Part shown: positions 1,922 through 32,172 of the stretch, piece by piece
How the letters are laid out: every line of letters starts with the position of its first letter
Position numbering within the stretch: position 1 is the first letter of the stretch
Source of the DNA: Halieaceae bacterium
Lineage (GTDB): Bacteria > Pseudomonadota > Gammaproteobacteria > Pseudomonadales > Halieaceae
DNA length: 32,172 nt
Assembly (NCBI GenBank): GCA_030066555.1
Contig: JASJBK010000002.1
Coordinates: forward strand, 1 to 32,172
Direction: 5' to 3'
Position numbers and translations under genes: made by a program
Notes under the pieces: model-generated
Database searches by the model: none
What the model saw: the letters and a program-made list of their open reading frames with translations, nothing else
Told to the model about the DNA's origin: nothing

Positions 1922-1931
1922 TGGGCGTCGC

Positions 1932-2477: not shown

Positions 2478-2533
2478 GGGTGCAGTATAGAGCCTGATCC
2501 CGCCCCGCCTGAAGCGCGGCTGTCGTGAAAAAG

Positions 2534-3070
2534 TCATGGCTCGTCCGCGTACAGGAAGGGCTGACGGGCCTGTTCCAGCAGGTCCTGGGCGTCGAGAATG
2601 AACTCGCAGGCCTCACGCACGGCGCCCATACCGCCGCTGCGCTGGCTGCGCCAGTCGGCGTGGGAGGCGACGAAATCGTCACCGTCGGCCACGGTCATGC
2701 CCAACCCCACTGCCTGGATGGCGCCCAGGTCCGGCAGGTCATCGCCCATGTAGGCCACCTGCTCGAGTGCGAGGTTCATGCCTGCCACCATTTCCTTGAG
2801 GGCATCGAGCTTGTCATCTCTTCCCTGGACAATGCGTTCGATGCCAAGTTCCCCGGCGCGGCGGTCGACAATGCTGGAACGACGGCCGGTGATGATGGCC
2901 ACCTCGATGCCGGCGGCCTGCAGCAGCTTGATGCCGAGTCCGTCCGGTGTGTAGAAGGCCTTGAGTTCTTCACCGACGTTGCCGTAGTAGAGCCTGCCGT
3001 CGCTGAGCACGCCGTCAACGTCCAGTACCAGCAGGCGAATGCGGCGGGCTTTCTCCAGCGCCAGGCTCAT
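2534..3070 (-). CDS. kdsC: 3-deoxy-D-manno-octulosonate 8-phosphate phosphatase KdsC
   Basis: HAD motif DVDGVLSDGRLYY, TGRRSSIVDRRAGELGI, YMGDDLPDL; 4-bp overlap with kdsD. Confidence 0.95.
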   Translation of the reverse strand: MSLALEKARRIRLLVLDVDGVLSDGRLYYGNVGEELKAFYTPDGLGIKLLQAAGIEVAIITGRRSSIVDRRAGELGIERIVQGRDDKLDALKEMVAGMNLALEQVAYMGDDLPDLGAIQAVGLGMTVADGDDFVASHADWRSQRSGGMGAVREACEFILDAQDLLEQARQPFLYADEP

Positions 3071-4047
3071 ACCACGCCCGCCTTGAGGATGTCCTGCAGC
3101 TTCACGACTCCGGTGGGGCGCCGGTTGTCGTCGACGGCGATCAGTCCGGTGATGGTGCGCTCCTCCATAATGTGTAGCGCCTCCGCGGCGAGGATTTCCT
3201 TGTCGATGGTGATCGGATCAGCATTCATGACGGTCTCGATGGTAGTGGCATGGATATCCATTTCGTTGTCGAGCGCACGGCGCAGGTCGCCATCGGTGAA
3301 CACACCCAGCAGCTGGCCGCCGTTGTCCAGCACCGTGGTAAGCCCCAGCCCCTTGCTGCTGACCTCGACCAGCGCCTCGTCCAGCAGAGTACCGGCGCTG
3401 ACCCGGGGCAATTCGTCGCCGCCGTGCATGATGTCATCCACCTTGAGCAGGAGCTTTCGGCCCAGGGCGCCCGCCGGGTGTGAAAAGGCAAAATCTTCCG
3501 CCGTGAAACCCCGGGCCTCCAGCAGCGCAATTGCCAGCGCGTCGCCGGCCACCAGCGACACCGTGGTGCTGGAGGTCGGTGCGAGGTCCATGGGGCAGGC
3601 TTCCTGGGCCACGCGGGTGTCAAGATTGACGTCGGCCGCCCTGGCCAGCACGGAATCGGGATTGCCGGTCATGGTCACCAGCGGTACCGCCAGCCGCTTC
3701 AGCAGCGGCAGCAGCGTCACTACCTCGCTGGTAGAGCCACTGTTGCTGAGGGCGATCACGCTGTCCTGGCTGGTAATCATGCCGAGGTCGCCGTGACTGG
3801 CTTCCCCGGGGTGAACGAAAAAGGACGGGGTGCCGGTACTGGCCAGCGTGGCTGCAATCTTGGTGCCGATATGCCCGGATTTACCCATGCCGGTGACCAC
3901 GACGCGGCCCTGGGTATTGAGCAGGATCTCGCAGGCGCGGGTAAAGCTGTCATCGAGGCGGTCGAGCAGGTCGGTGATGGCGTCGCGTTCGAGTTCGACA
4001 GTACGGCGCACGGCGCCGAGAAAATCGGGGTGTTCGGGTCTGGACAC
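3067..4047 (-). CDS. kdsD: D-arabinose 5-phosphate isomerase KdsD (SIS + tandem CBS)
   Basis: SIS domain VVVTGMGKSGHIGTKIAATLASTGTPSFFVHPGEASHGDLGM; C-terminal CBS pair. Confidence 0.95.
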   Translation of the reverse strand: MSRPEHPDFLGAVRRTVELERDAITDLLDRLDDSFTRACEILLNTQGRVVVTGMGKSGHIGTKIAATLASTGTPSFFVHPGEASHGDLGMITSQDSVIALSNSGSTSEVVTLLPLLKRLAVPLVTMTGNPDSVLARAADVNLDTRVAQEACPMDLAPTSSTTVSLVAGDALAIALLEARGFTAEDFAFSHPAGALGRKLLLKVDDIMHGGDELPRVSAGTLLDEALVEVSSKGLGLTTVLDNGGQLLGVFTDGDLRRALDNEMDIHATTIETVMNADPITIDKEILAAEALHIMEERTITGLIAVDDNRRPTGVVKLQDILKAGVV

Positions 4048-11987: not shown

Positions 11988-12914
11988 CTAGAGTTTGTGG
12001 GCCTTGGGCCAGCGCCTCTTCAGGCAAATCCACTGGTCGGGCTGTTCGCTGATCCAGGTTTCGAAATGGTGGTGCACCGCCTCGGTCATGGCGATCGCCT
12101 TCTCGTCCGTGCTGCCACTGTCCGGCACCGGGATCGGTGCGTACAGGGTGACCCGGTAGCGCGCTTTGCCGAGCCGCTCACCGCGAATGGGCAGCACGGC
12201 GCTACCCGTCTTCAGCGCCAGCCTGGCCGCGCTGGTATTGCTCAGGGCGTCGCGACCGAAGAAAGGCACCAGGGCGCCGGTGTCGAGGCGGGTATCCATG
12301 GCCATGCCGATGGAGCGGCCGGCGTGCAGTTCCTTGAGCAATGGTCTTACACCCGCATCGGTGGGTACCAGTTTGACCCCGAAGGACTCGCGCAGCTTGA
12401 ACATCTGCTCGCGCAGGGCGGCGTTTGATTCCGGCGCATAGATCACGCTGACTTCCAGGCCCATGTCCAGCACGATCAGGTTGGTAACCTGCCAGGGTCC
12501 AACGTGGGCCGATACAAATACGGCGCCGCCGGCATCCAGCGCCGCGCGTGCCGCGGGATCGACGATAAACTCTATGCGCCGGTCGCGCTCTTCCCAGATC
12601 TGCCCCAGCTTGATCAGCTCGGCGGCAGATTTGCCAAGGCTGCGGAATATCCCGCGCACTTTTTCATCGCGCCAGGCCTGGTCCCGGTCCGGGAAGGCGA
12701 TGGAGAGGTTGATGTCGGCCTTGCGGGCCTTGTCACCGTAGGGGCCCAGCCAGCCGAAAAGCGCCGCACCCCAGGCGCTGGCGCGCTCCGGCGACAGCCT
12801 GTCCAACAGCCAGAACACGGTATTGAATATACGCGCTTCCAGCCACTGCACGCAGCGCCCCAGCCAGGGCCAGGCTCGGGCTGCGCGCTTGGGTACCAGG
12901 TAGTACTCGGGCAT
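11988..12914 (-). CDS. LpxL/HtrB-like lysophospholipid acyltransferase, variant HX4Q active-site motif
   Basis: LpxL-family layout (AHVGPWQVTNL, GRSIGMAMDTRLDTGALVPFFGRDALSNT, HHHFETWISEQPDQWICLKRRWP). ATG at 12914; the listed ORF start at 13457 runs antisense into the neighbouring gene. Confidence 0.88.
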   Translation of the reverse strand: MPEYYLVPKRAARAWPWLGRCVQWLEARIFNTVFWLLDRLSPERASAWGAALFGWLGPYGDKARKADINLSIAFPDRDQAWRDEKVRGIFRSLGKSAAELIKLGQIWEERDRRIEFIVDPAARAALDAGGAVFVSAHVGPWQVTNLIVLDMGLEVSVIYAPESNAALREQMFKLRESFGVKLVPTDAGVRPLLKELHAGRSIGMAMDTRLDTGALVPFFGRDALSNTSAARLALKTGSAVLPIRGERLGKARYRVTLYAPIPVPDSGSTDEKAIAMTEAVHHHFETWISEQPDQWICLKRRWPKAHKL

Positions 12915-12934: not shown

Positions 12935-13594
12935 TCAGGCCTGTTGCGCGGGTCGCTTTGCGTCTGCGTCGGGCAGCGTGCCAAACACGTGGTCCCAGAG
13001 CGGGGAACTCACGCCGTAGCGACCGCCTTCGCCAGAAAAGTGGTGCTTGAGATGGTAGTGCTTGAGGTACTTCGCCAGCGGGCTGCGCATCGGGAAGTGA
13101 TGGGTGGCGTAGTGAATGTAGTCGTAGCACAGGTAGCCGATTATGAAGAACGCAAAAAACGGCTGTAGCCACGGCTGCGGTATCGCCAGCCCGAACAGCA
13201 GGTACAGGGCTGCCATGATCGGCACGCCGCCGGCGGGTGGCATGACCAGGCGCGTCTTGTCCTTGGGATCGTGATGGTGGTTGCCGTGGAAAATAAACAC
13301 GAACCACTTGCCGATGCGGCTCTTTGCCGGGAAGTGAAACACGAAGCGGTGCAGCAGGTATTCCGCCAGTGTCCAGGCGAATACACCAGCTGCCGCCATG
13401 GCCAGCAGCGCCCACAGGCCAAAGCCATGCACCGCCACGCTGCGCCACAGCAGCCACGCGGCCACCGGGCTCCAGAATACCAGTGGCGTAATCGGGTGTA
13501 CGTGGGACAGTCGCTCGAGGGTGTCGTTCTCGAACAGTCGGATGGACTGGTGCTCAGTCTTGGGCTGGGCGTTTTGTTGCGTATCAGGCTGCAT
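12935..13594 (-). CDS. Fatty acid hydroxylase, FA2H/Scs7-like (candidate ceramide N-acyl 2-hydroxylase)
   Basis: Histidine clusters HRFVFH, HGNHHHDPKDKTRLVMPP, YIHYATHHF, YHLKHHF...YGVSSPLWDHVFGT, with the order and flanking residues of FA2H/Scs7. Confidence 0.87.
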   Translation of the reverse strand: MQPDTQQNAQPKTEHQSIRLFENDTLERLSHVHPITPLVFWSPVAAWLLWRSVAVHGFGLWALLAMAAAGVFAWTLAEYLLHRFVFHFPAKSRIGKWFVFIFHGNHHHDPKDKTRLVMPPAGGVPIMAALYLLFGLAIPQPWLQPFFAFFIIGYLCYDYIHYATHHFPMRSPLAKYLKHYHLKHHFSGEGGRYGVSSPLWDHVFGTLPDADAKRPAQQA

Positions 13595-14558
13595 AGCTGT
13601 CTATACCGGAATCGTTCCTGGCCGGATTGGCAGGCGCGGAGTTTTTCTGTTTGTCCCAGAAGCGCTTTGAAGCAAACCAGTCTTGCGGGTGCTTGCGAAT
13701 CCAGGCTTCGAAATGTTGATGGACTTGGGCGGTCATATCCACTGCCTGCTCGTTTTCGCTGGCGTCGGGGTCGCTCGCCCGGATCGGCTCGTGGAAGGTG
13801 ACCCGAAACCTCGCATTGGCCAGGCGTTCAACCTGCACCGGCACCAGGTCACAGTTGAATTTCAGTGCCAGCTTGGCTGGCATCAGCGTGCTCAGCTTGT
13901 CGCGGCCGAAGAAGGGTACGGGAGAGCCCTCGTCGATGCGGCGGTCCATGACAGCACCCGCGGTGCGGCCCTTCTTCAGCGCACGCATCAACAGGCGCGC
14001 ACTGTTGTCCCTGGAAAGCAGCTCGCAGTTGAGCGCCAGGCGGCTGTCGGACAGCATCTTGTCAAGGTAGGGATTGGTCGGCGGCGAATACAGGCTGGAG
14101 TTGGGCATGCCCAGTTTGGCCATGGCCGAGCAGACGACTTCCCAGTTACACACATGAGCGGTGGCGACCACGCAGGGGCGCGAGAAATCAGGTTGCTTTA
14201 CCACGATGTCCAGGCGCTCGTCTTCGGCAAGAATGGTCGCCAGATGGGGGTATTCGCCCAGTACCCGCCCGGCAGCTCCCCAGGCATCGACCACCAGGGC
14301 GTCGAGCGCTGCATCGTCCAGCTCTGGAAAGGCAGTGGCGAAATTGTTGCGGTAGATCGCCGTCTTGCGCTTCATGCGCGGCCCGATCAGGCGCCCCACC
14401 CGACGTCCCAGGCGTGAGGAGAAATCCACCGGTAGCAGCGTGAACAATTTCGCCAGCACCCACACCATGGCAAAGTCGAGTCGCCACAGTGCCCTCTGCA
14501 GGCGAGGGTGACGGCGCGCAATCTTGCGTAGCGGGCTACCAATGATGAATTCAGCCAT
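13584..14558 (-). CDS. LpxL/HtrB-like lipid acyltransferase with canonical HX4E
   Basis: VVATAHVCNWEVVCSAM, KKGRTAGAVMDRRIDEGSPVPFFGRDKLSTLMPAKLALK, HQHFEAWIRKHPQDWFASKRFW; 11-bp overlap with the hydroxylase gene. Confidence 0.9.
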   Translation of the reverse strand: MAEFIIGSPLRKIARRHPRLQRALWRLDFAMVWVLAKLFTLLPVDFSSRLGRRVGRLIGPRMKRKTAIYRNNFATAFPELDDAALDALVVDAWGAAGRVLGEYPHLATILAEDERLDIVVKQPDFSRPCVVATAHVCNWEVVCSAMAKLGMPNSSLYSPPTNPYLDKMLSDSRLALNCELLSRDNSARLLMRALKKGRTAGAVMDRRIDEGSPVPFFGRDKLSTLMPAKLALKFNCDLVPVQVERLANARFRVTFHEPIRASDPDASENEQAVDMTAQVHQHFEAWIRKHPQDWFASKRFWDKQKNSAPANPARNDSGIDSYAA

Positions 14559-14671: not shown

Positions 14672-15595
14672 TCAAAGTGCCGTATTGTCCAGTGTCAGCA
14701 GGCCGTCGTGAAGGCCGATTTGCGGCGACCAGCCGGTGGCCTCGCTGATGGCCCGATTGTCGGTCACCCAGTTGTCGAAGCGCAGTTCCCGCAGCTTGGG
14801 TGGCGTGAGCATGGCGGGTTTGCCGGTCAGCCGCCCCAGGCCCAGACTCAGTGCCGCGACTGCATTCAGCAATGGCGCCGGTACCTGCCACAGACGAACC
14901 TCGCGGCCGTATACCGTGCCGGCTATGGTGGCCATTTCGCGCCAGTTGTAGCCACCGCTTTTTTCATCCCCCAGCTCGAATACCTGGCCTGCCGCTGCCT
15001 CGCCATCCAGGCAGGTCGCGATTGCTTGCACCAGGTCGTCAACGTGCAGCAGCGAGGTGCGCGCCTCGATGCTGCCCGGCACCAGGGCAATGCCGCGAGC
15101 CATCCAGTCAAAGATGGCGCGCATTTCCTCGTCACCTGGGCCATAAATGGCTGGCGGCCGCAGCACTACCCAGTCCAGGCTGCTGGCCTTCACCAGCTCT
15201 TCGCCGGCGCGTTTGCTGCGGGAATACCAGGACAGCTGCGGCTCTCTCGCGGCCAGCGACGACACATGGATGATTCTTGCCCCCGGCGCTACAGAGCCGG
15301 CTGCGGTCAACACAGCGCGGGTACCCTCGCAGTTGGAGACCAGGAAATCTTCGGCTTTGTTGCCGCGCACCACGCCGGCCAGGTGGATTACGGCGTCGGC
15401 ACCGCTCAGCAGCTGCTGCAGGGCGTCCGGCGTTTGCAGGGAGCCGGTGACGGTCTCGATACTATCCGGGAGCCGGCTGGCCTTTTGCGGGCTGCGCAGC
15501 AGTGCGCGCACGCTATCGCCGCGCCCGAGAAGATGGGCGCAGAGGCGTTGTCCTATGAAGCCTGTCGCGCCGGTCAGCGCAACCAGTCTGGCCAC
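14672..15595 (-). CDS. NAD(P)-dependent epimerase/reductase (extended SDR), candidate CerR-type ceramide reductase
   Basis: TGATGFIG nucleotide-binding motif, YSRSK (YX3K) catalytic motif, LRPPAIYGPGD; next to the acyl-AMP ligase and near spt. Confidence 0.85.
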   Translation of the reverse strand: MARLVALTGATGFIGQRLCAHLLGRGDSVRALLRSPQKASRLPDSIETVTGSLQTPDALQQLLSGADAVIHLAGVVRGNKAEDFLVSNCEGTRAVLTAAGSVAPGARIIHVSSLAAREPQLSWYSRSKRAGEELVKASSLDWVVLRPPAIYGPGDEEMRAIFDWMARGIALVPGSIEARTSLLHVDDLVQAIATCLDGEAAAGQVFELGDEKSGGYNWREMATIAGTVYGREVRLWQVPAPLLNAVAALSLGLGRLTGKPAMLTPPKLRELRFDNWVTDNRAISEATGWSPQIGLHDGLLTLDNTAL

Positions 15596-15607: not shown

Positions 15608-17377
15608 TTAGGCGGTGGCTACCCTGAGGCGAACTTCCTCGGCCACCGCGTTGAGGCGCTCATTGTCATGGGCGGCAATGAAGTCCTGGCGTGCCTTGGA
15701 GCGCGACAGCTTGCCTGAAGAGGTCCGGGGCAGCGAGTGGGGTGCTACCAGTTCAACGTAGCAGTCGAGGCTCAGTTCCATGCGCACCAGGGCGGTGAGG
15801 CGACGCACCAGGTTATTACGCTTGTTGGGGTCGGTTTCACGACACTGGACCACCAGGACACAGAGCTCGTCGCCCTCATGGTCCGGAGCGGAGAAAGCGA
15901 GGGCATCGCCCACCCGTACTTCCGGCTGGGACTCAGCGATGTGCTCGAGATCCTGCGGCCAGATATTGCGGCCGTGGATGATGATCAGGTCTTTCTTGCG
16001 ACCGGTGATAGTGATGATGCCGTCGGCCAGGTAGCCGATATCACCGGTGTTGAGCCAGCCGTCTTCGCACAGGGCGTGGCTGGTCTCTTCCGGCAGTCCG
16101 AAATAGCCTGACATGACGCTGGGGCCGCGCAGGTAGATGACACCGCTGTGCCAGTCCGGCAGCGCCTTGCCATCGTCGTCGCGTACTTCGACGTCGAAGC
16201 CTGGCAGCGGATAGCCGCAGTTGACGAAGTGGCGGCCGCGGCCGCTGTTTTCTGACTCTTCCAGCAGCACCGCTTCGTGGTGGTCTGCCAGGTGGTCGCT
16301 GTCGATATGGTGGGTGGTGAAGCCGGTGTTGAGCGGGGAAAAGCTGATCCCCAGGGTGCACTCGGCCATGCCGTAGCAGGCCAGGAAGGCGCGACGGTCG
16401 AAGCCGCAGGTCTCCAGCATGTCGGCAAAGTGTTCCAGCGTCTGCGGCCGGATCATCTCGGCGCCAATGCCGGCCACGCGCCAGCTAGAGAGGTCGTACT
16501 GCTCGAGATCGGCGGGCCGAACCCGGCGCGCGCACAGGTCGTAGCCGAATGACGGCGCAAAGGAAATCGTCGCGCGGGTCTTGGTCATCAGGTTGAGCCA
16601 CTGGCGCGGGCGCATGGCGAACTCGCGGGTGTCCAGGTAGTCGATGGATACCTGGGCGGACATGGGTACCAGCACAAAGCCGACCAGGCCCATGTCGTGG
16701 TAGTAGGGCAGCCAGGACATCATGCGATCGTCGGAGCCCATTTCCAGACCCTGCATGATGGCCTGCAGGTTGGCCATGGCAGTCTGGTGCTCGATGACGA
16801 CGCCACGCGGGAAGCGGGTGCTGCCCGAGGTGTACTGGATGTAGGCGATATCGGTGGGCTTCACCTCCGGCAGCGCCAGGCCGGTATCGGGCAGGGCGTG
16901 GAAGGCTTCCGGCTCCTCGACCATGCGAATGGCCAGGTCTTCGCTGGCTTCCTGCAGGAAAGGCAGGTAGCCCTCGGAAGCGACACCAATGGCGGCATCG
17001 CTGGCTTCCAACAAGCGCTGCAGCTGGGCAACGTAGGCGCTGTGGGCGCCGACCTTTACCGAGGCAGGCAGGGCAACGGGGATCAGGCCTGCATACTGGC
17101 AGGCGTAGAAAAAGCGAATGAATTCGGGGTCGGTTTCAGCAACCAGAGCCACGCGGTCGCCCTTGTGCAGGCCGAGGCCCAGCAGCTTACGCGCCAACAT
17201 CTGCGACTGTTGGCGCAGGTCAGCGTAGGAGATGCTGGCATAGATTTCGCCGCGACCGGTATAGAAATTGGAGCCGGTCTCGCCCTGGGCCGCGTAGTCG
17301 AGCGCATCGGTGAGCGTCTCGAAATCTGCCGCGCGATAGGCCAGGTCGTGGTGCGTCGGCGTAGCGTTAGGTTGCAA
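15608..17377 (-). CDS. Fatty acyl-AMP / acyl-ACP ligase (FAAL-like AMP-binding enzyme)
   Basis: YIQYTSGSTRFPRGVVIEHQ, SWLPYYHDMGLVGFVLVPM, GWLNTGDIGYLADGIITITGRKKDLIIIHGRNIWPQDLE, SLPRTSSGKLSRSKAR; FAAL-style A5-A8 motifs. Confidence 0.9.
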   Translation of the reverse strand: MQPNATPTHHDLAYRAADFETLTDALDYAAQGETGSNFYTGRGEIYASISYADLRQQSQMLARKLLGLGLHKGDRVALVAETDPEFIRFFYACQYAGLIPVALPASVKVGAHSAYVAQLQRLLEASDAAIGVASEGYLPFLQEASEDLAIRMVEEPEAFHALPDTGLALPEVKPTDIAYIQYTSGSTRFPRGVVIEHQTAMANLQAIMQGLEMGSDDRMMSWLPYYHDMGLVGFVLVPMSAQVSIDYLDTREFAMRPRQWLNLMTKTRATISFAPSFGYDLCARRVRPADLEQYDLSSWRVAGIGAEMIRPQTLEHFADMLETCGFDRRAFLACYGMAECTLGISFSPLNTGFTTHHIDSDHLADHHEAVLLEESENSGRGRHFVNCGYPLPGFDVEVRDDDGKALPDWHSGVIYLRGPSVMSGYFGLPEETSHALCEDGWLNTGDIGYLADGIITITGRKKDLIIIHGRNIWPQDLEHIAESQPEVRVGDALAFSAPDHEGDELCVLVVQCRETDPNKRNNLVRRLTALVRMELSLDCYVELVAPHSLPRTSSGKLSRSKARQDFIAAHDNERLNAVAEEVRLRVATA

Positions 17378-17910: not shown

Positions 17911-19053
17911 ATGAACGGCCAGAGCGCCGCGTCCATCCGCCTGGAGACGCTGGAAACCCCGTCACAGCTTCGCGATTTCCTGGCGCTGCCTCATCGTCTA
18001 TACGCTGAAGACAGCGCCTGGATTGCTCCGCTGACCCTTGAGCAGCGCCAGCGCTTCTCGCCAAAGAACCATTTTTTCCAGCATGCACGCTGGCGCGGCT
18101 GGGTCGCCTATCGCGACGGCGTGCCGGTCGGTCGCATTACCGCCCAGGTTGATGAACTGCACCAGGCTCACCACGGCGACCATGTGGGTTACTTCGGTAT
18201 GGTCGAGGGAGACGATGACGCCGAGGTTTTCGCCGCCCTGTTTGAAGCTGCCGAGAGCTGGCTGCGCAGCGAGGGCATGCAGCGGGCCCGCGGTCCGCTC
18301 AACCTGCACATCAACGAGGAAGTGGGCCTGCTGGTCGACGGCTTCGATACCCCACCCTTCGTGCTGATGGGGCACGCCAGGCCCTTCTACGGAGAGCGCA
18401 TCGAAAGCCATGGCTATCGGGGCGCCCGCGACTTGCTGGCCTACCACATCCGGCCCGACTTCGAGGCGCCTCGAGTCATGACGAAGCTGGCCGAGCGGGT
18501 TTCGGGCCGTGTCACCGTGCGCGCGCTGGATCGCGCGCGGATCGACGCCGAGGCGGCAGTCATGCTGGAAATCTTCAACGACGCCTGGAAACACAATTGG
18601 GGCTTTGTGCCTCTGGGAGAAGAAGACTGGGCGGATACGGTCAAGACCCTCACCAGGCTGATGCCAGACGACTATATCCAGATCGCCGAGTACGACGGCG
18701 AGCCGGTGGCCTTCATCGTTGCCCTGCCCAATATCAACGAGGCCGCTCGGGACCTGAAGGGTCGCCTGTTCCCGTTTGGCTGGCTCAAGCTGCTGTGGCG
18801 CCTCAAGGTCCGGCACCCCCGGACCGCCCGGGTGCCGCTGATGGGCGTGAAGCAGGAATTCCAGCACTCTCGGCTGGGTCCCACGCTGGCCTTCATGGTG
18901 ATCGATGCAGTGCGCAAGGCCCTGCATGCCCGCGGCGTCGAAGACGTCGAAATGGGCTGGATACTTGAGGACAACGACGGGATGCGCAATATTATCGAGA
19001 CCATCGGCGGCCAGGCGTACAAGCGCTACCGCGTGTACGAAAAACCTCTCTAG
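17911..19053 (+). CDS. Large GNAT-family N-acyltransferase, candidate bacterial ceramide synthase (bCerS-like)
   Basis: ~380 aa GNAT-type protein (PVGRITAQVDELHQ, GYFGMVEGDDDAEVFAALFEAAESWLRSEGMQRARGPLNLHINEEVGLLVDGFDTPP, VEMGWILEDNDGMRNIIETIGGQAYKRYRVYEKPL); genomic context with spt/ACP/ligase/SDR. Confidence 0.8.
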   Translation: MNGQSAASIRLETLETPSQLRDFLALPHRLYAEDSAWIAPLTLEQRQRFSPKNHFFQHARWRGWVAYRDGVPVGRITAQVDELHQAHHGDHVGYFGMVEGDDDAEVFAALFEAAESWLRSEGMQRARGPLNLHINEEVGLLVDGFDTPPFVLMGHARPFYGERIESHGYRGARDLLAYHIRPDFEAPRVMTKLAERVSGRVTVRALDRARIDAEAAVMLEIFNDAWKHNWGFVPLGEEDWADTVKTLTRLMPDDYIQIAEYDGEPVAFIVALPNINEAARDLKGRLFPFGWLKLLWRLKVRHPRTARVPLMGVKQEFQHSRLGPTLAFMVIDAVRKALHARGVEDVEMGWILEDNDGMRNIIETIGGQAYKRYRVYEKPL

Positions 19054-19062
19054 GAACCCCGC

Positions 19063-19881
19063 ATGCAACTGGACCCCGAATCCCACCAGATGACCGCCAT
19101 TGTCCTGGCCGGAGATCGCAGCAAAACCGATTCCCTGGTTGATCAATCCCCTGCGGGCTGCAAGGCGTTGATCGATATCGACGGCACTCCCATGGTGCGC
19201 CGGGTGCTGGACTCGCTGCTGGCATCCAAGGTGGTGTCGGCAATCACCATGGCCGGGCCGGAGGCCGATGAGCTGGCCACCGATGCCGGGATTACTGCGC
19301 TGGTGGATGCCGGCAAGGTAAGCTGGCGCGCACCCCAGGCGAGCCCCTCCACCAGCGCCTACCAGGCCATGCAGGCAGTCGATGCCGACCAGCCGATCTT
19401 GCTGACCACCGCGGATCACCCGCTGCTGACCCCGGAAATTGTCGATGCCTTCGGTCGCCAGAGCCTGGCGGATGATGTCGATGTGGCAGTAGGGCTGGCA
19501 CCGCACGCGCTGGTTACCGAGGCCTACCCAGGTATCAAGAAAACTGTGCTGCGCTTCGCCGACGGTGAATTCTGCGGCTGCAACCTGTTTGCCTTTCTCA
19601 CCCCGGAGGGCCGGCGCGCGGCAAACTTCTGGCGCAAGATCGAGCAGGAACGCAAGAAGCCGCTGCTGGTGATCGGCCTGCTGGGCTGGTGGGCAGTGAT
19701 TCGTTACCGGCTGGGGCTGCTGCCCCTGGAAGACGCGCTGGCCAAGCTGTCCAAACGCCTTGGCCTGCGCATGCGGGCGGTAATCCTGCCCTATGCCAAT
19801 GCCGCCATCGACGTCGACTCCATCGCCGACCTGATGCTGGTCAAGGGCTCCCTCGAAAAAGCTGTGGATAGGGACGCTTAG
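19063..19881 (+). CDS. MobA-like NTP transferase (nucleotidyltransferase), role unknown
   Basis: MTAIVLAGDRSKTDSLVDQSPAGCKALIDIDGTPMVRRVLDSLL, ILLTTADHPLLTPE; starts 9 bp after the N-acyltransferase gene. Confidence 0.75.
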   Translation: MQLDPESHQMTAIVLAGDRSKTDSLVDQSPAGCKALIDIDGTPMVRRVLDSLLASKVVSAITMAGPEADELATDAGITALVDAGKVSWRAPQASPSTSAYQAMQAVDADQPILLTTADHPLLTPEIVDAFGRQSLADDVDVAVGLAPHALVTEAYPGIKKTVLRFADGEFCGCNLFAFLTPEGRRAANFWRKIEQERKKPLLVIGLLGWWAVIRYRLGLLPLEDALAKLSKRLGLRMRAVILPYANAAIDVDSIADLMLVKGSLEKAVDRDA

Positions 19882-20897: not shown

Positions 20898-23350
<2,453 letters not shown>

Positions 23351-23475: not shown

Positions 23476-23718
23476 TCAGGGATTGAGGCCCTGGACCTTC
23501 TGGGCCAGCTCACCGATGGTGTTTACATCCGGCAGGATGTTGAGGGGGATGGAGATATCGAAGTGATCCTCGATCTTCTCGATGAACTCCATGACTTCCA
23601 GGGAGCTCAGGCCGATGTCCGCCACCAGGTCGGTGGTTTCCGTGAGCTCAACGTTTTTCTTGTTCAGCGGCCCAAGCGCGCCGTACATGAATTCGAGGTA
23701 TTCGCGGTAGTCGGCCAT
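23476..23718 (-). CDS. Acyl carrier protein dedicated to the spt locus (AcpR-like)
   Basis: 80 aa; phosphopantetheine site region DIGLSSLEVMEFIEKIEDHFDISI. Confidence 0.9.
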   Translation of the reverse strand: MADYREYLEFMYGALGPLNKKNVELTETTDLVADIGLSSLEVMEFIEKIEDHFDISIPLNILPDVNTIGELAQKVQGLNP

Positions 23719-23794
23719 CCTGCCCGTGCCCTTGCGCCGTTAATTGCAAGTCGCTAGATTTCAAAGCCGGAACTATACCCACGGTACCCCCGCA

Positions 23795-24868
23795 ATGCCA
23801 GCGATTTGGTTAATAGACGCTTACCGCGCAGGTGAGCGCGGTCAGGTGCGTGCGCTGGCAGATGCGGTGGCGGCGTCGCTGGGCTGGCCCTGTCGCCGCA
23901 TCGAGCTGGACTATCGCTCGCACATCATCCTGCCGCATATTCTTGGCGCGGCCAGTGTCAGCGGCATTACCGAGGCCTCGCGCCGGGCGCTGGCGCCGCC
24001 CTGGCCGGACCTGGTGATTACCTGCGGAGTGCGCAATGAGCCGGTGTGCCGCTGGATCCGCAAACAGTCCGGGGGGCACACCCGCTACCTGCACCTGGGC
24101 CGTCCCTGGGGTCGGCTCGACAGTTTCGACCTGGTGGTGACCACGCCCCAGTACCGCGTGCCCGATCGGGCCAATGTGGTCAACAACGAACTCACCCTGC
24201 ACAGCTTTGACGGCGATCGCCTGCAGGCCGCCGGTGCACGCTGGGCCGAGACCTTTGCGTCACTGCCGCCACCCTATGTGACGGTGAACATCGGTGGCGA
24301 CAGCGGGCCGTTCACTTTCGGGCCGAAGGCGGCTGAGCGGCTGGCGCAGGATGCATCAAGCCTGGCGCGGGAACTGGGTGGCTCGTTGCTGGTGTCCACC
24401 AGTTCGCGCACCCCGGTCGCGGCAGCAGATATCCTTGAGCGGAACATCGATGTGCCCTGTCATGTGTACCGCTGGCGCCCCGACGACCAGGACAACCCTT
24501 ACCTGGGGATGCTGGCGCTGGCGGAGCGGCTGGTGGTCACCGGTGACAGCATCGCCATGCTCTCTGAGGCCTGCGCCACCGGCAAACCTGTCTATATCTA
24601 TGACCTGGGCGGCATGCGCGAAGAGGTGCCCGTCGAGCGCGACTTTCGCTGGGGCGGGTTTTTCTACGGGCTGTTGATGCGCTGGCTCTGGCAGCGGCTC
24701 AGTCGCGACATCACCCTGGTACACCGGCAACTGTTGGCAGCGCAACGCGCCAGCTGGCTGGGCGAGGCGCCGCCCTCGCAGGCCGAGGCGCCGGTCAATG
24801 ATCTCGCCCGTGCAGTCAGTGCCACCCGGGCACTACTTGGCGAGCCCCAGGCTGTCGACCTCGAGTAA
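23795..24868 (+). CDS. ELM1 (DUF1022)-family protein, GT-B glycosyltransferase-like, paralogue 1
   Basis: IWLIDAYRAGERGQVRALADAVAASLGW, PDLVITCGVRNEPVCRWIRKQSGGHTRYLHLGRP, NPYLGMLALAERLVVTGDSIAMLSEACATGKPVYIYDL. Confidence 0.82.
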   Translation: MPAIWLIDAYRAGERGQVRALADAVAASLGWPCRRIELDYRSHIILPHILGAASVSGITEASRRALAPPWPDLVITCGVRNEPVCRWIRKQSGGHTRYLHLGRPWGRLDSFDLVVTTPQYRVPDRANVVNNELTLHSFDGDRLQAAGARWAETFASLPPPYVTVNIGGDSGPFTFGPKAAERLAQDASSLARELGGSLLVSTSSRTPVAAADILERNIDVPCHVYRWRPDDQDNPYLGMLALAERLVVTGDSIAMLSEACATGKPVYIYDLGGMREEVPVERDFRWGGFFYGLLMRWLWQRLSRDITLVHRQLLAAQRASWLGEAPPSQAEAPVNDLARAVSATRALLGEPQAVDLE

Positions 24869-26584
24869 ACGAGCGCTGCCGTCACTCAACTGGTAAACGT
24901 GGTCGGCGGCGCTGACCATGGCGCGGTTGTGAGAAATGGCGAGGATGGTGAGGTGACCCTTGAGCTGCTCCATGGATTCCCGCACTGCGGCCTCGCTGTC
25001 GGGATCGAGTGCGCTGGTGGCCTCATCCAGGATCAGCAGTTTGGGGTTGTTGACCAGGGCGCGGGCGATAACGATGCGCTGGCGCTGCCCGCCGGAGAGT
25101 TTGCCGCCCCGTTCACCCACCACCGTTTCCAGGCCCTCTGGCAGTCGCGCCACGAAGTCCCAGGCACCGGCGGCCTTGAGTGCACGTTCGGCGTCTGCTG
25201 TGCTGAGCGCCGGGTCGCCAAGGGTAACGTTGTGAAGGACGCTGTCGTGTAGCAATACGGTGTCCTGGGGTACGTAGCCAATCATGTCGCGCCAGGCGCG
25301 GATATCCAGTGCCTCCAGGGAGCGACCGTCGAGCTGCACTTCACCGCTGTCGGGGCGCAGCAGGCCGATGGTCAGGTCGATGATGGTGGTTTTGCCCGCA
25401 CCCGATGGCCCGATCAGGGTGGTCAGCGAACCGGCGGGAATTTCCAGGGTGAGCCCGTTGAAGACCGGGTGCTTGTCGTAGGCAAAGTTCACCTGGTCGA
25501 AGCGGATGCTGCTGTCGAGGCTTGGCGTGCTGCCGCCGTGCAGCTGTTCGCGGGCGTCATTGGCGGCGGCGATACTGTCCTGCATGGCCCAGTAGGCGCT
25601 CTCGCCCTGCACCAGTTTCTGGTACTGCTTCTGCACCTTGCCCAGGAAACTGAAGGCGCGGCCCAGGGTCACCACCAGTACCATCACTGTGGTGAGCGCC
25701 ATGCCGTAGCCCTCCAGCGCCACGTAGATGCCCAGGCAGATGAACAGTGCGAACATGAGCTCCTGGGCGGAATCCAGCACCGCGGCGCTGAGCACCTGTA
25801 CTCGCAGCGCCTTGTTGAGCCGCCGTGTTTCGTGGGTCAGCACGGTGTCTGCCAGGTGTTCCCGGGCCATGGCCTTGAGCGGTTTCACCGATTGGAGGGT
25901 GTCTGTGAGGTTGGCGATCAGCGAGGTCATCAGGTTGGTCTGTTTGCGGCCTGCCTTGCGGGTTATGCGCACCAGGAAGTGGGACAGCCCGATGACCACC
26001 GCACCGGCGCCGATGGCCACCAGCGACGCCTGCCAGGACAGGGCGAAGGCAACGGCGCCATAGATGACCGCCTGGATCAGGAAGGTAATGGCGGTGGCGC
26101 CGTGCACAAAAGAGGCGGAGGAGCGTTGGGCCTCCGTGGCCAGCGAATTGGTGAGCTTGCCCACCGGCTGGTGCAGGAAGTACTCCCACTTGCTGCGCAG
26201 CACCGCGCGCAGCATCTGCAGGCGCAGGTCGGTGCCGACCTGGGCCGCGGTATAGCCCACCTGGCGCTGGGCAATCAGCAGGAACACGCTCTTCAGGGCC
26301 ACGCCGGCGACGATGATCAGCAGCATATTGCCGAGGGTGGGCGCGATGCCGAGGCCGTCTAGGGTATTGAGCACTGCGGCCTCAAAGCCGGATTGCGCTT
26401 CACTTTGTACGCCCATGCCGAGTTCGGCGGCTGCAGAACTCGCCTCGCCACCCACGGCGATGTTCAGCAGCGGCAGCAACGCGGACAGGCCGACACCCTC
26501 GGCGATACCCGACAGCAGCAGGGCCAGCAGCATCAGCACGGTGTGCAGACGGTAGGCCCGGAAAAAGCTGAGCATGAGTTTCAT
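24833..26584 (-). CDS. MsbA-like ABC exporter (fused TMD-NBD)
   Basis: N-terminal TM region; Walker A GPSGAGKTT, Q-loop YVPQDTVLL, signature LSGGQRQR, Walker B LLILDEATSALD; ATG at 26584 rather than ORF start 26869. Confidence 0.9.
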   Translation of the reverse strand: MKLMLSFFRAYRLHTVLMLLALLLSGIAEGVGLSALLPLLNIAVGGEASSAAAELGMGVQSEAQSGFEAAVLNTLDGLGIAPTLGNMLLIIVAGVALKSVFLLIAQRQVGYTAAQVGTDLRLQMLRAVLRSKWEYFLHQPVGKLTNSLATEAQRSSASFVHGATAITFLIQAVIYGAVAFALSWQASLVAIGAGAVVIGLSHFLVRITRKAGRKQTNLMTSLIANLTDTLQSVKPLKAMAREHLADTVLTHETRRLNKALRVQVLSAAVLDSAQELMFALFICLGIYVALEGYGMALTTVMVLVVTLGRAFSFLGKVQKQYQKLVQGESAYWAMQDSIAAANDAREQLHGGSTPSLDSSIRFDQVNFAYDKHPVFNGLTLEIPAGSLTTLIGPSGAGKTTIIDLTIGLLRPDSGEVQLDGRSLEALDIRAWRDMIGYVPQDTVLLHDSVLHNVTLGDPALSTADAERALKAAGAWDFVARLPEGLETVVGERGGKLSGGQRQRIVIARALVNNPKLLILDEATSALDPDSEAAVRESMEQLKGHLTILAISHNRAMVSAADHVYQLSDGSARLLEVDSLGLAK

Positions 26585-26660: not shown

Positions 26661-27731
26661 TCACCAGCGCATCCTGCGCAAAAGCAGCAGGGCCGCCAGG
26701 AACACGATGACGGTGGGCAGGAAGGCCACCACGGGTACCGACAGGGAGAGCAACTGGCCCAGTGCGTAGATGATCTGCGCGCCGAGGTAGAAGAGGATGC
26801 CCACCAGGGCGCCGATGCCGAGATTGACACCGAAATTGCTGCTGCGCCGCGAGCCCAGGCTGGCGGCAATGGGTGTGGCCAGCAGCACCATGGCGCCCAC
26901 GGTCAGTGGCAGGGCCAGCTTCTGCCAGAATGCACCGAAATAGCTCTGCCATGCCTGGCCGTTGGCCTTCAGGAACTGGCTGTACTTGTACAGCACTGAC
27001 AGGGTCATGCTGTCGGCAGTCAGCGCCAGGGAGGGCAACTCGTCCTTGTCCCACATGTTACCCACCTCCAGCTCTGCGTGGCCGCGGGTGCGGAACACGC
27101 CATCCACAAGGTATTTTTCTCGCACCCGCTTGAGCAGCCAGCGCCGCCCGGAGCGGACTTCTGCAGCGCCCGCGTGCAGGGTGCGCACCAGCTGGCCGTC
27201 CTCGTCAAACTCGTAGACGTCGATACCGCCGGGTACGCCGTTCTCATCGAGCCGGGCAAGGTGGACGTAGCGGCGCTCATTGCGTGACCAGACGCCGCCG
27301 TCGGGAATGCGCACGTCGCCCCGGTAGCGCAGATACTGGCGTTCCTGTTCCGCATGCTGGTGCAGCCTTGGGGTGGCGAATTCGAGGCCGGCCCACAGCA
27401 GTGTCATCAGCAGCAGGGTAGGCAGCGCGATGGCGGTCAGCAGCGACCTGCGCGAGACGCCGGCGCAGCTGATCACGGTGAGTTCGTTGTAGCGGTCGAG
27501 GTTGGCCAGGGCCATGATGCTGCCCAGCAGCGCGATCACCGGCGCCAGTCCCACCAGCTGCTGGGGCAGTGTGTAGATCGTATAGCGGGCCACCGCCAGG
27601 GCGTCGTAATCGAAGCGGGTGCGCTCCAGTTCGGTGATGAAAGCAATCAGCCCGAACACAGCGCCCACGACCAGCAGCACCATCAGCCAGCCACGTACCA
27701 GGTTGGCGGCAATGTAGCGGCGCAGGATCAC
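26661..27731 (-). CDS. lptG: LptG-like permease (YjgQ family)
   Basis: ILRRYIAANLVRGWLMVLLVVGAVFGLIAFITEL, YTLPQQLVGLAPVIALLGSIMALANLDRYNELTVISCAGVSRRSLL; GTG start overlapping the lptF stop. Confidence 0.88.
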   Translation of the reverse strand: MILRRYIAANLVRGWLMVLLVVGAVFGLIAFITELERTRFDYDALAVARYTIYTLPQQLVGLAPVIALLGSIMALANLDRYNELTVISCAGVSRRSLLTAIALPTLLLMTLLWAGLEFATPRLHQHAEQERQYLRYRGDVRIPDGGVWSRNERRYVHLARLDENGVPGGIDVYEFDEDGQLVRTLHAGAAEVRSGRRWLLKRVREKYLVDGVFRTRGHAELEVGNMWDKDELPSLALTADSMTLSVLYKYSQFLKANGQAWQSYFGAFWQKLALPLTVGAMVLLATPIAASLGSRRSSNFGVNLGIGALVGILFYLGAQIIYALGQLLSLSVPVVAFLPTVIVFLAALLLLRRMRW

Positions 27732-28858
27732 GAGGCGTTCCTCGCGCGCCGGCTGCGCCGCAGGCGTGGCGGGTTGACCAGCAGCACCAGGATCACGGCG
27801 ACCACCGCATGGGCCGCCCACAGGCCGGGGAAGCGCGGCACTGTGCCCTGTTCGATGCCGGTGCGCATGACGGCGGTCAGGCTCAGCAGGCCGATGTAGA
27901 TGCCCAGGGCGATGAAGAAACTGCGCAGTCGCGACTCGCGCGGCGCGGTGCGTCCCAGCGGTACGGCCACCAGCGCCAGCAGCAGGGTGGCCAGCGGCGT
28001 GGTGATGCGCCACTGGTACTCGGCGATGTCCTTGGGCTCCGGGGAAAGTGACAGGTTCAGGGTGGTTTCCGCCTTGCGACGATACTGCTCGCGGGCCTCC
28101 TCGTTGGCGAGGCTCACCTCCATGCGGTTGAACTTCAGGGTGATGTCCTGGCGCTTGCGCTTGTCGAGCAGGTAGTTGTAGCCGTTGTGAAATTCCGCGG
28201 TCAGCGCCTGGCCCGGGTTGAGGGTGGGCAATGCCGCCGACTCGGCGATAATGATCTCCTCGCGACCCTTGCCCGGGTAATGGCGCTGCATGAATATTCC
28301 CTTGTGCAGGCCGCGTTCCAGGTCCAGGCCCTCGGCGATGAAGGTGTAGTCGCTACCCTCCATATTCACGAACTCTCCCGCTGCCATCTTCTTCAGGTCG
28401 AACTGGGCCGCGGCTTCAGCCTCGAGTCGGTAGCTCTCGCGGTAGGCCCAGGGGCGACCCAGTATGGAAATAACGCCGGTGATGATGGCCACCACTACCG
28501 CCAGTTTGAACACCGCTTCGAGAATCCGCGCACGGCTCAAGCCCGCGGCATACAGGGCGTTCATTTCCGCATCCCGGTACATGCGCCCGATGGCAGCCAG
28601 CACCGAGAAAAACAGGGCCGAGGGGAGCAGCACCTCGAGGGTGACCAGCGTATTGAGCCCTACCAGCTGGAAGGCGGTGAGCATGTCGAGTTTGCCCTGG
28701 GCCGCCAGGCCCAGCTGCACAGAGGCGGAATAGCCAATGAACACCAGCACCAGCAGGCCGAGGCCTGACACGAAGGGGCGCAAAATTTCCAGGCTGATGT
28801 AGCGATCGACGATCAAGCGAGCGGTCCCTGTCCGCAGCGGGGGGTGGTTCCCGCGCAT
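27728..28858 (-). CDS. lptF: LptF-like permease (YjgP family); start ambiguous (ATG 28858 or TTG 28816)
   Basis: IVDRYISLEILRPFVSGLGLLVLVFIGYSASVQL, LLPSALFFSVLAAIGRMYRDAEMNALYAAGLSRARIL, TTPLATLLLALVAVPLGRTAPRESR. Confidence 0.88.
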   Translation of the reverse strand: MRGNHPPLRTGTARLIVDRYISLEILRPFVSGLGLLVLVFIGYSASVQLGLAAQGKLDMLTAFQLVGLNTLVTLEVLLPSALFFSVLAAIGRMYRDAEMNALYAAGLSRARILEAVFKLAVVVAIITGVISILGRPWAYRESYRLEAEAAAQFDLKKMAAGEFVNMEGSDYTFIAEGLDLERGLHKGIFMQRHYPGKGREEIIIAESAALPTLNPGQALTAEFHNGYNYLLDKRKRQDITLKFNRMEVSLANEEAREQYRRKAETTLNLSLSPEPKDIAEYQWRITTPLATLLLALVAVPLGRTAPRESRLRSFFIALGIYIGLLSLTAVMRTGIEQGTVPRFPGLWAAHAVVAVILVLLVNPPRLRRSRRARNAS

Positions 28859-29041: not shown

Positions 29042-30019
29042 ATGTTTAAGCTGAGCGACGGCGTCAAGAAGGCGCTGATTCTCATTCCCACGCAGCCCCT
29101 GCCCGCAAAAACCCGGGTGGCGCTGCGCCGCAAGCACCTGGCCAACCTGGAACTGGCCAAGGCCCACGCAGCGCAGTTCCTGATTATCGGTCATCCCAAG
29201 AGCGGCAATACCTGGCTCAAGGTGATGATCTCGCGGCTCTACCAGCTGCGTTACGACCTGCCCGAGTCCAAGCTGATCAACACTGACGAATTTGCCCGCA
29301 AGATCCCGGAAATCCCGCGGCTGGCCGCCACCAACGGCGTCTACAGTTACGAGGGCGAAGTCGGCAAGCTGCTGGCAGTGGGTGCACCGGATAATCCCCT
29401 GCGCCAAAAGCCGGTACTGTTTCTGGCCCGCAACCCGATCGACATCGCCGTAAGCTGGTACCACCAGTTCACCAAGCGCCAGTCACGCGCCAAGCAGGAA
29501 CTGATCAACCATTCCATCGAGCACCCCATCGACCGCAACACGGTGGAGATGTGGGAGTTCGTACGCCACTCCGACATCGGCCTGCCATTCCTGATCAACT
29601 ACCAGAACCAGTGGGCCGAGGCGATTGCCGAGCTGCCCCGCGGGCTGATGGTGCGCTATGAAGACCTGCGCGCCGACCCGGTGCCAACCCTGCACAGGAT
29701 CGTCCAGCACATGGGCGAGAACTTCTCCGAGGAAGAGGTGCGCGCCGCCGTGGAGTGGGGCTCCTTCGACAACCTGCAGAAGCTGGAGACCAGCGGCACC
29801 TTCAGCCAGGGTGGCATGAAGCTGGTCAACAAGAACGACCCCAGCACCTACAAGGTGCGCCGCGGCAAGGTCGGAGGGTACCGGGAAGACTTCAACGAGG
29901 CGCAGGTGACCGAGCTCGAGGCGCTGGTGCGCGACCTTATTTCTCCCCAGCTCGGCTATTGCCAGGAAAGCAGCCAGGAAAGCAGCCAGGAAAGCAGCAC
30001 AGAGAGCCGCGAGGACTGA
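29042..30019 (+). CDS. PAPS-type sulfotransferase
   Basis: 5'-PSB motif IGHPKSGNTWLKVMISRLYQL and 3'-PB motif LARNPIDIAVSWYHQF; C-terminal KVRRGKVGGYREDF resembles the SULT RKGxxGDW region. Confidence 0.9.
   Translation: MFKLSDGVKKALILIPTQPLPAKTRVALRRKHLANLELAKAHAAQFLIIGHPKSGNTWLKVMISRLYQLRYDLPESKLINTDEFARKIPEIPRLAATNGVYSYEGEVGKLLAVGAPDNPLRQKPVLFLARNPIDIAVSWYHQFTKRQSRAKQELINHSIEHPIDRNTVEMWEFVRHSDIGLPFLINYQNQWAEAIAELPRGLMVRYEDLRADPVPTLHRIVQHMGENFSEEEVRAAVEWGSFDNLQKLETSGTFSQGGMKLVNKNDPSTYKVRRGKVGGYREDFNEAQVTELEALVRDLISPQLGYCQESSQESSQESSTESRED
29963..29998 (+). repeat. 3 x 12-bp tandem repeat CAGGAAAGCAGC encoding (QESS)3 at the sulfotransferase C-terminus
   Basis: Exact copies 29963-29974, 29975-29986, 29987-29998. 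Confidence 0.95.
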
Positions 30020-30020
30020 G

Positions 30021-31142
30021 ATGCCGCCGCGCACCTGGGTCATCCTCAGTGACAAACGGGGCGACAATGGGCAGGTAGACACCATCGTCGAAGCCCTGGG
30101 CTGGCCGATAGAGCACAAGTATGTGCATATGAAGCCCGAGTGGGTGCTGGGAAAACCTCGCTATCGCCCCTCTCTCGATCACCTCGATCTCAGCCAGTCC
30201 GACGCTCTGGAAGCACCGTGGCCGGAACTTATTATCACCGTGGGCCGACGGCCCTCCATGGTGGCGCTGTGGATTCGCAAGCAATCCGGCAACCGTACGA
30301 AGATCGTGCTGGTGGGCAAACCCTCCGGACATATGCTGGACTTCTCGCTGGTGGTGGCCAGTGCCGAGAACCAGATGCCGCCGCTGCACAACTTCCAGGC
30401 CACCACGCTGCCGCTGATGCGTATCACCGCAGAGGATGTGGCCGAGGAGGCGGTGGCCTGGCGCGAGCGCTTCGCGGAGTTGAAACGGCCGCTGATCGCC
30501 ATGCTGATCGGTGGCGAAACCAATCCCTTTATCATGAACCGCAAGGTGGCGCGGGACCTGGTGGCCACCGCCCGCTGGGTGGTGGATGAACTGGGGGGTA
30601 CCCCCTATATCACCACCAGTCGTCGCACCACGCCGAAGGTGCTGGAAGTGCTGCGCGCCGAGTTGCCGGAAGAGGCGATCTACTTCGAGTGGTCAGCGGA
30701 CGCCACGGACAACCCCTACCGGGCACTGCTCGGCTCTGCCGACGGTTTTATCGTTACCGGCGACAGCGTGTCGATGATGGTGGAAGTCATCAAGCTGCAC
30801 AAACCGCTGGCGATCTTTCCGCTGCCCGGTGGCTGGCTGGGCAGGATCGACCAGCTGCGCCGTTCACTGGCGCACTGGCTTTTCCGGCCCAAACTGACGT
30901 CAGGTTTTGATCGCCTGCGCCACGCGGTGGCGAGGGGCGTGCACCACATCGACTACTTCAAGGTGTTGAGTGCCACCCGCGACTTCCGCGCTTTCCACAA
31001 GCTGCTGGTCGATAATGGTTACGCGGTGTGGGCTGGCCAGGCGTTTCGCAAGGACGAGCTTGCACTGCCCGACGATGTGGGCGTGGTGATCAAGCGGATT
31101 GAGGCGCTGTTTCCGGCAGACAGCCAGACAGGTTCCGCCTAG
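30021..31142 (+). CDS. ELM1 (DUF1022)-family protein, GT-B glycosyltransferase-like, paralogue 2
   Basis: WVILSDKRGDNGQVDTIVEALGW, PELIITVGRRPSMVALWIRKQSGNRTKIVLVGKP, LIGGETNPFIM, NPYRALLGSADGFIVTGDSVSMMVEVIKLHKPLAIFPL. Confidence 0.83.
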   Translation: MPPRTWVILSDKRGDNGQVDTIVEALGWPIEHKYVHMKPEWVLGKPRYRPSLDHLDLSQSDALEAPWPELIITVGRRPSMVALWIRKQSGNRTKIVLVGKPSGHMLDFSLVVASAENQMPPLHNFQATTLPLMRITAEDVAEEAVAWRERFAELKRPLIAMLIGGETNPFIMNRKVARDLVATARWVVDELGGTPYITTSRRTTPKVLEVLRAELPEEAIYFEWSADATDNPYRALLGSADGFIVTGDSVSMMVEVIKLHKPLAIFPLPGGWLGRIDQLRRSLAHWLFRPKLTSGFDRLRHAVARGVHHIDYFKVLSATRDFRAFHKLLVDNGYAVWAGQAFRKDELALPDDVGVVIKRIEALFPADSQTGSA

Positions 31143-31765
31143 CGCATCCCGAGAACGTTCTTCATGAAGTGGGTGCCGAAGCGGCTGATGCGCTGGGCTG
31201 CCACCGCCAGCGGGCTCTGGTCCAGGTAGTTGAGCTGCACCATGCGCCGCTCACCCACGAAGCGGGTGTGGCCGTGCCAGGAATGGTCGGTGCGGCGGAA
31301 GGCCAGCAGGGTGCCGCCGAGCGGCGCGACCTGGGCCGCGTAATCCCCGATATCGGACTTCGAGCGCAGCATGCGTAACTGGCCGTCCTCGTGATCCCAG
31401 CCCTCGTTGAAGTACACCAGCACAGTGATCACTTTGCTTTTGTGATCGGTGTGAATGTTGCCATCGGTGCGCTCGCAGAACTTGCGGACCGTCACCGTGG
31501 TCGGCAGGCTGGCGAGATCCATGTCGAAGCGCTCGCCGAGCACCTCGGCGAAGGCCTGGCCCTGGATTTCATCCATCAGCGCGCCGAAGGCCGGACCGTA
31601 GCTCAGGTTGTCCAGAGCGTGATTGGCGGCCGTGTCGATCGCCGGGTAGTCGGCGTTCACCTTCGCCAGGGCGTCAGCGGAAAGGAAGTCCGGCACCACC
31701 ATGAAGTCGAAGGGGTCGCTGTTGAGGTCCGCGCTGCGGACTGCGTCGAGGTTGATCAGAGACAT
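31139..31765 (-). CDS. 2-oxoglutarate/Fe(II)-dependent oxygenase
   Basis: HTD metal motif in GNIHTDHKSKVITVLVYFN and distal HSWHGHTRFVGERRMVQLNYLD; ATG at 31765. Confidence 0.78.
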   Translation of the reverse strand: MSLINLDAVRSADLNSDPFDFMVVPDFLSADALAKVNADYPAIDTAANHALDNLSYGPAFGALMDEIQGQAFAEVLGERFDMDLASLPTTVTVRKFCERTDGNIHTDHKSKVITVLVYFNEGWDHEDGQLRMLRSKSDIGDYAAQVAPLGGTLLAFRRTDHSWHGHTRFVGERRMVQLNYLDQSPLAVAAQRISRFGTHFMKNVLGMR

Positions 31766-31882
31766 GCGCGAATTGTACGGGCAGGCGCGAAACCGCAGCA
31801 AGTGAGAGGCCCGGTAATAGTGCGGCAAATCAAGAATTCCTGTATCATGCGCCGCCTTTTCAAGCCGGAGAATTCCCCGCCC

Positions 31883-32172
31883 ATGGGCGACAAAGCCCGC
31901 GCCGCCGCGCGCATCCTGATCATGCTGCTGTGCTTCTGGTTGCCGGCGCAGCGCCGCAAGCGCCTGGAACGCTGGCTGCGGGGTCGCGAGGAATTCAAGA
32001 AGCTCGAGCGCTGTGACTGGGTGCTGATGAGCTGGGGGAAGTCCGGCCGAACCTGGCTGCGGGTCATGCTGTCCCGCGCCTACCAGCTCAAGGGTGGGCT
32101 GGCCTCTGACGAGCTGCTGGATTTCGACAATTTCCGCGCCAGTGACGCCTCACTGCCGGCTGTGTTCTTTAC
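31883..32172 (+). CDS. Second sulfotransferase, partial (runs off the window)
   Basis: Translation from ATG 31883: MGDKARAAARILIMLLCFWLPAQRRKRLERWLRGREEFKKLERCDWVLMSWGKSGRTWLRVMLSRAYQLKGGLASDELLDFDNFRASDAS; P-loop region parallels IGHPKSGNTWLKVMISRLYQL in sulfotransferase 1. Confidence 0.8.
   Translation, partial: MGDKARAAARILIMLLCFWLPAQRRKRLERWLRGREEFKKLERCDWVLMSWGKSGRTWLRVMLSRAYQLKGGLASDELLDFDNFRASDASLPAVFF

Follow-up and report, generated by a model that had tools for sequence, protein, structure and literature searches.

We hypothesize that the sulfotransferases of a gene island in Halieaceae bacteria decorate the headgroup of a glycosphingolipid that stands in for LPS where lipid A has been lost, a reading that we consider rather probable. 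The window analyzed here is the whole of one contig (C266, 32172 bases) of a 3.2-Mb metagenome-assembled genome, which consists of 267 contigs, is 86% complete and has Halieaceae as its named relatives.

A sequence-only reading of this DNA had placed two PAPS-dependent sulfotransferases at the end of the window, and both score far above the PF00685 cut-off of 22 bits, the second being cut by the contig end. SULT1 (29042..30019, plus strand, 325 aa) was assigned from the Sulfotransfer_1 profile (80.5 bits, E 1.7e-22) together with its motifs, namely the PSB loop GHPKSGNTW, the 3'-phosphate motif RNPIDIAVSW and the C-terminal VRRGKVGGYR. The 5' part of SULT2 (~31883..32172, plus strand) is continued on contig C157 (L012:7622-8515, minus strand), where the catalytic THNNY His is retained, and SULT2 scores 84.2 bits to PF00685 (cut-off 22). 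The SULT-family PAPS-binding motifs quoted in that reading are all three found in the sequence, and it had correctly described an ELM1-like gene and a 2OG oxygenase between the two sulfotransferases: ELM1b (30021..31142, plus strand; PF06258, 171 bits, assigned by profile and AlphaFold model) and a 2OG-Fe(II) oxygenase-like gene (31139..31765, minus strand; PF13640, 35 bits), which is kept between ELM1b and SULT2 in relatives. Past position 32172, where the same reading had suggested checking for further sulfotransferase genes, there are at least two more, SULT3 on C157 (86.3 bits to PF00685, cut-off 22) and a fourth on contig C70. By profile score and PAPS residues the sulfotransferases belong to the PF00685 family, and the profile scores together with conservation over 44 related loci show that the calls are not due to chance.

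The PAPS-binding residues (Lys/Ser/Thr of the 5'-PSB loop, Arg/Ser at the 3'-phosphate) are invariant or nearly so in SULT1 (n=44), SULT2 (n=34) and SULT3 (n=30), and the catalytic His of the SULT type is present in 34/34 SULT2 and 30/30 SULT3 sequences. In SULT1 the corresponding position is an Asn in all 44 orthologues, next to an insertion of 5 residues. Because of this replacement, SULT1, which is the only sulfotransferase lying wholly inside the window, would appear to have the least certain activity of the sulfotransferases; a base other than His is possible. The genome also encodes APS kinase.

The last 263 bases of the window overlap the end of C157 with 5 mismatches, and the genes at this join are contiguous in a congener (L054/L143). 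C157 carries the remainder of SULT2, SULT3, a SolA-like oxidase, GTx1, ELM1c, GTx2, a GT2 and orfX. On C70 are found the fourth sulfotransferase, a third GTx, a second 2OG oxygenase, a phosphopantetheinyl transferase, an O-antigen-ligase-like gene and a DAGK-like gene. The joins of C266, C157 and C70 are supported by the congener G159, which has the same gene order, from rpoN-lptB-lptA-kdsC-kdsD through the fourth sulfotransferase, on one 85-kb contig. The island measures roughly 40 kb.

The bacterial ceramide set aasR, acpR, spt, cerR and cerS is complete in the window. Serine palmitoyltransferase (SPT, 22148..23350, minus strand; NF047599, 593 bits, cut-off 500) and the fatty acyl-AMP ligase AasR/FAAL (15608..17377, minus strand; NF006624, 793 bits, cut-off 600) score above curated cut-offs, and AcpR, CerR and bCerS were assigned by domain, motif and position. 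The AcpR-like acyl carrier protein (23476..23718, minus strand), read from the sequence as 80 aa with a GLSS motif, is encoded just upstream of SPT, and the CerR-like NAD-dependent reductase occupies 14672..15595 (minus strand). The putative ceramide synthase, a bCerS-like GNAT protein (17911..19053, plus strand, start codon inferred), is conserved next to a MobA-like NTP transferase (19063..19881, plus strand). A fatty acid hydroxylase (12935..13594, minus strand; PF04116) lies nearby. Between the ceramide genes and SULT1 are ELM1a, a putative glycosyltransferase (23744..24868, plus strand; PF06258), an MsbA-like ABC exporter that is a candidate flippase (24833..26584, minus strand), and the island-type LptG-like (26661..27740, minus strand) and LptF-like (27728..28810, minus strand) permeases.

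A contig scan of genomes for SULT1 returned 44 loci, onto which the island proteins were mapped. The order SPT-ELM1a-ABC-LptG-LptF-SULT1-ELM1b-2OG-SULT2-SULT3-GTx1-ELM1c-GTx2 recurs in dozens of these loci, in Halieaceae and some Porticoccaceae, and in other families of Gammaproteobacteria the layouts are altered with SPT still nearby (L044, L046, L082, L083, L086, L088). Among 120 family genomes, a SULT1-like match was found in 41, the same 41 that have SPT, and in 0 of the 79 that lack it; these family members are related, so that the 41/41 does not represent 41 independent events. Some of these carriers, such as G164, G174, G179 and G182, have SULT2/3-type matches only and no close SULT1. 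In 147 genomes of the order, five have a SULT1-like match at E<1e-40, all of them with SPT and four with both on the same contig; three further genomes have SPT without a match at this threshold. The rearranged layouts in other families weigh more than the co-occurrence within the family. A Myxococcota metagenome-assembled genome (L094) contains a SULT1-GTx-2OG-SULT2-ELM1 block, and the best SPT match of this genome is only 36% identical, which indicates that the sulfotransferase block is able to occur without this ceramide pathway and hints at horizontal transfer or at another acceptor.

What, then, is sulfated? The sequence-only reading had proposed a ceramide or glycosylceramide. Its functional link between sulfotransferases and sphingolipid genes is strongly supported by the synteny across families and by the 41/41 co-occurrence with SPT; the part that fared less well is a simple sulfated ceramide. 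A sphingolipid carrying a sulfated oligosaccharide is more likely, because the island has three ELM1 (GT-B-like), three GTx (GT8-like), one GT2 and one O-antigen-ligase-like gene. The AlphaFold model of ELM1b (pLDDT 91) resembles the GT-B enzymes EarP, galactolipid synthase MGD1 and MurG. GTx1 has a sub-threshold Pfam match to GT8 only, and its predicted model (pLDDT 86) resembles GT-A enzymes, among them GlyE and LgtC. For both proteins the TM-scores are modest, about 0.4-0.5, and support the fold class, not the substrate; a sequence search found no solved relatives of either. The predicted ELM1 and GTx folds point to a glycosylated lipid, and since they resemble glycosyltransferases the product is more likely to be a glycosphingolipid with sulfate than a ceramide sulfate without sugars.

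The probable purpose of this lipid is suggested by the lipid A genes missing from the source genome. No LpxC was detected in this genome or in any of its three congeners. Among the 120 family genomes it is missing in 28, of which 26 have SPT (Fisher p 1e-13, kinship ignored), and 15 genomes with SPT keep it; LpxK is missing in 27. We scored lipid A loss on both genes, and both are missing in 24 of the 41 SPT-bearing genomes, these being the source genome, its three congeners and 20 others. Left out of the losses were G221 (LpxK present) and G204 (LpxK in pieces), as well as the SPT-lacking G184 (70% complete) and G261 (83%, LpxK present). That the missing LpxC reflects assembly gaps was rejected, since the absence holds in the near-complete G209 (8 contigs, 99%), G190 (100%), G163 and G164 (both 99%) and agrees with LpxK. 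A single ancestral loss is disfavoured as well: the loss of lipid A seems to be recurrent because the LpxC state needs about six changes on the island-gene tree, of which at least four are forced by starred branches (quick tree of island proteins, G221 counted as lacking).

The LptFG pairs bear on the export of the product. In the source genome the island LptF/LptG is the sole LptFG pair found, and the lipid-A-less genomes checked (G000, G157, G159, G163 and G164) have the island pair only. The LpxC-bearing carriers G042, G165 and G166 have both the island pair and a canonical pair, the two types being only 25-30% identical. In G160, LpxC is present, yet only the island LptFG was found.

Gene identities, synteny, co-occurrence with SPT, absence of LpxC and LpxK and the lack of a second LptFG pair were computed, and we infer the substrate, the sulfation site, the order of steps, the export route and the outer-leaflet location. 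Judging by their families, FAAL, AcpR, SPT, CerR and bCerS would make a ceramide, which the GT-B-like ELM1 and GT8-like GTx enzymes would then glycosylate. Hydroxylation and further acylation are probable, given the fatty acid hydroxylase, the 2OG oxygenases and the LpxL-like acyltransferases, and up to four sulfotransferases would add sulfate from PAPS. The MsbA-like ABC protein may flip the product, and island LptF/LptG with LptB and LptA would transport it to the outer membrane. In lipid-A-less lineages, LPS would be replaced in the outer leaflet by this anionic, sulfated glycosphingolipid.

Could the sulfotransferases and glycosyltransferases instead make a sulfated capsule or exopolysaccharide, with the sphingolipid genes as mere neighbours? 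Marine bacteria commonly have sulfated polysaccharides, the block contains an O-antigen-ligase-like gene, and L094 has the block without an orthologous SPT. However, the exact co-occurrence with SPT (41/41, and 0/79 in family genomes lacking it) and the adjacency that persists in the rearranged layouts of other families argue against this explanation, and no capsule polymerase or export set was recognised among the island genes examined; we regard it as unlikely. The ligase-like gene, which the window genus has in its island and which is matched inside the Mangrovimicrobium cluster (L067), would also suit a long sulfated polysaccharide attached to the glycosphingolipid in the manner of an O-antigen, with the sulfotransferases acting on the chain and not on the core headgroup. 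This seems more doubtful still, as the gene is unmatched at the same place in several carriers (G163, G164 and G042), while all 41 carriers retain a sulfotransferase.

The product might also be a plain anionic ceramide derivative like the ceramide diphosphoglycerate of Caulobacter, the sulfotransferases acting on a small molecule or a protein. The NTP transferase does resemble nucleotidyltransferases of the Caulobacter region, and known SULT-fold enzymes often use small molecules. Nevertheless, most loci have glycosyltransferase genes alongside the sulfotransferases, and the neighbourhood of the ceramide genes showed no recognisable ceramide kinase, the DAGK-like gene lying further along the island, so that we consider this explanation very improbable. 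The sulfated glycosphingolipid headgroup remains our preferred reading.

The animal galactosylceramide sulfotransferase, which forms sulfatide, carries out a PAPS-dependent sulfation of a glycosphingolipid, the same type of reaction as proposed here; the window proteins are SULT-type PF00685. In Sphingomonas, glycosphingolipids are thought to replace LPS and lipid A in the outer leaflet. S. koreensis lacks LPS and needs its sphingolipids (PMC11324152). Common to both groups would be a sphingolipid-based glycolipid in place of lipid A. Unlike Sphingomonas, the Halieaceae are Gammaproteobacteria, have sulfotransferases and a dedicated LptFG, and show patchy lipid A loss within one family.

Caulobacter crescentus has aasR, cerR, acpR, spt and cerS in the region CC_1168-CC_1152 together with a second LptF/LptG, a proposed flippase and nucleotidyltransferases (PMC11324152). 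The grouping of ceramide genes with extra LptF/LptG copies, a flippase candidate and nucleotidyltransferases is thus shared with the island. In contrast, Caulobacter adds phosphoglycerate via CpgA-D and keeps its LPS (PMC11324152, PMC12275187), and descriptions of its region mention no sulfotransferase, ELM1 or GTx block; these belong to the Halieaceae island. The island MobA-like NTP transferase and CC_1153 are both described as nucleotidyltransferases and are likened here by that description. None of CpgA, CpgB and CpgC was recognised among the genes as assigned in the island. The sulfate-1-deoxyceramides of the Black Sea are bacterial sphingolipids with sulfate on the fatty acyl chain, for which anaerobic producers were proposed (PMC11334938). 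Like the proposed island product they are sulfated bacterial sphingolipids, and the word sulfotransferase is absent from that report (PMC11334938).

In the open-licence literature we found neither LPS loss nor sphingolipids reported for Halieaceae, and no report on genes for the sulfated sphingolipids of bacteria; the combination of sulfotransferases, ceramide genes and lipid A loss was not found in the literature searched. If our reading is true, the island provides genes for a sulfated bacterial glycosphingolipid and a natural series of related marine bacteria with LPS replaced, and it suggests that sphingolipids have an Lpt export route of their own, a question still open for Caulobacter (PMC11324152). 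A broader proposition is that free-living Gammaproteobacteria dispensed with lipid A on more than one occasion and depend on a polysulfated, LPS-like glycosphingolipid that has an LptFG machine of its own for export; we judge it to be evenly balanced between true and false.

Cultured type strains with and without the loss make the idea directly testable: Pseudohaliea rubra DSM 19751 (G170) is without LpxC and LpxK, and LpxC is present in Chromatocurvus halotolerans DSM 23344 (G042) and Mangrovimicrobium sediminis. For P. rubra, resistance to polymyxin B and colistin is reported and 12:0 2OH is one of the main hydroxy acids, and C. halotolerans is polymyxin sensitive (PMC3679898). The resistance of P. 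rubra fits the absence of lipid A and is not specific, because this strain resists 10 of 13 antibiotics tested (PMC3679898). Against our reading, the polar lipids reported for P. rubra and C. halotolerans are PG, PE and unidentified phospho- and aminophospholipids with no glycolipid, so that the product would have to escape standard TLC or be too polar.

Several further genes accompany the island. Two LpxL-like acyltransferase genes (11988-12902 and LAT2, 13584..14558, the latter on the minus strand) adjoin the ceramide genes and are retained in lipid-A-less genomes, including this one; the sphingolipid may be what they acylate. In L087, L088, L090 and L091, a LAT2-like gene is also found immediately upstream of SULT1. 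The Lpt and Kdo genes lptB, lptA, kdsC and kdsD (1196-4047) are kept without LpxC and LpxK; in this segment lptC is absent from its usual place between kdsC and lptA, and Kdo may belong to the sphingolipid glycan or to a capsule. On C70 (L011, 6871-10090), the O-antigen-ligase-like gene, a gene of unknown function and the DAGK-like gene adjoin the fourth sulfotransferase, and the DAGK-like product may be a lipid kinase with the sphingolipid as its substrate. Finally, orfX (L012, 2-649; L143, 6965-7891) is conserved and accompanies the island in many loci, with a sub-threshold Pfam match to a Tam41-type cytidylyltransferase (E 0.027).
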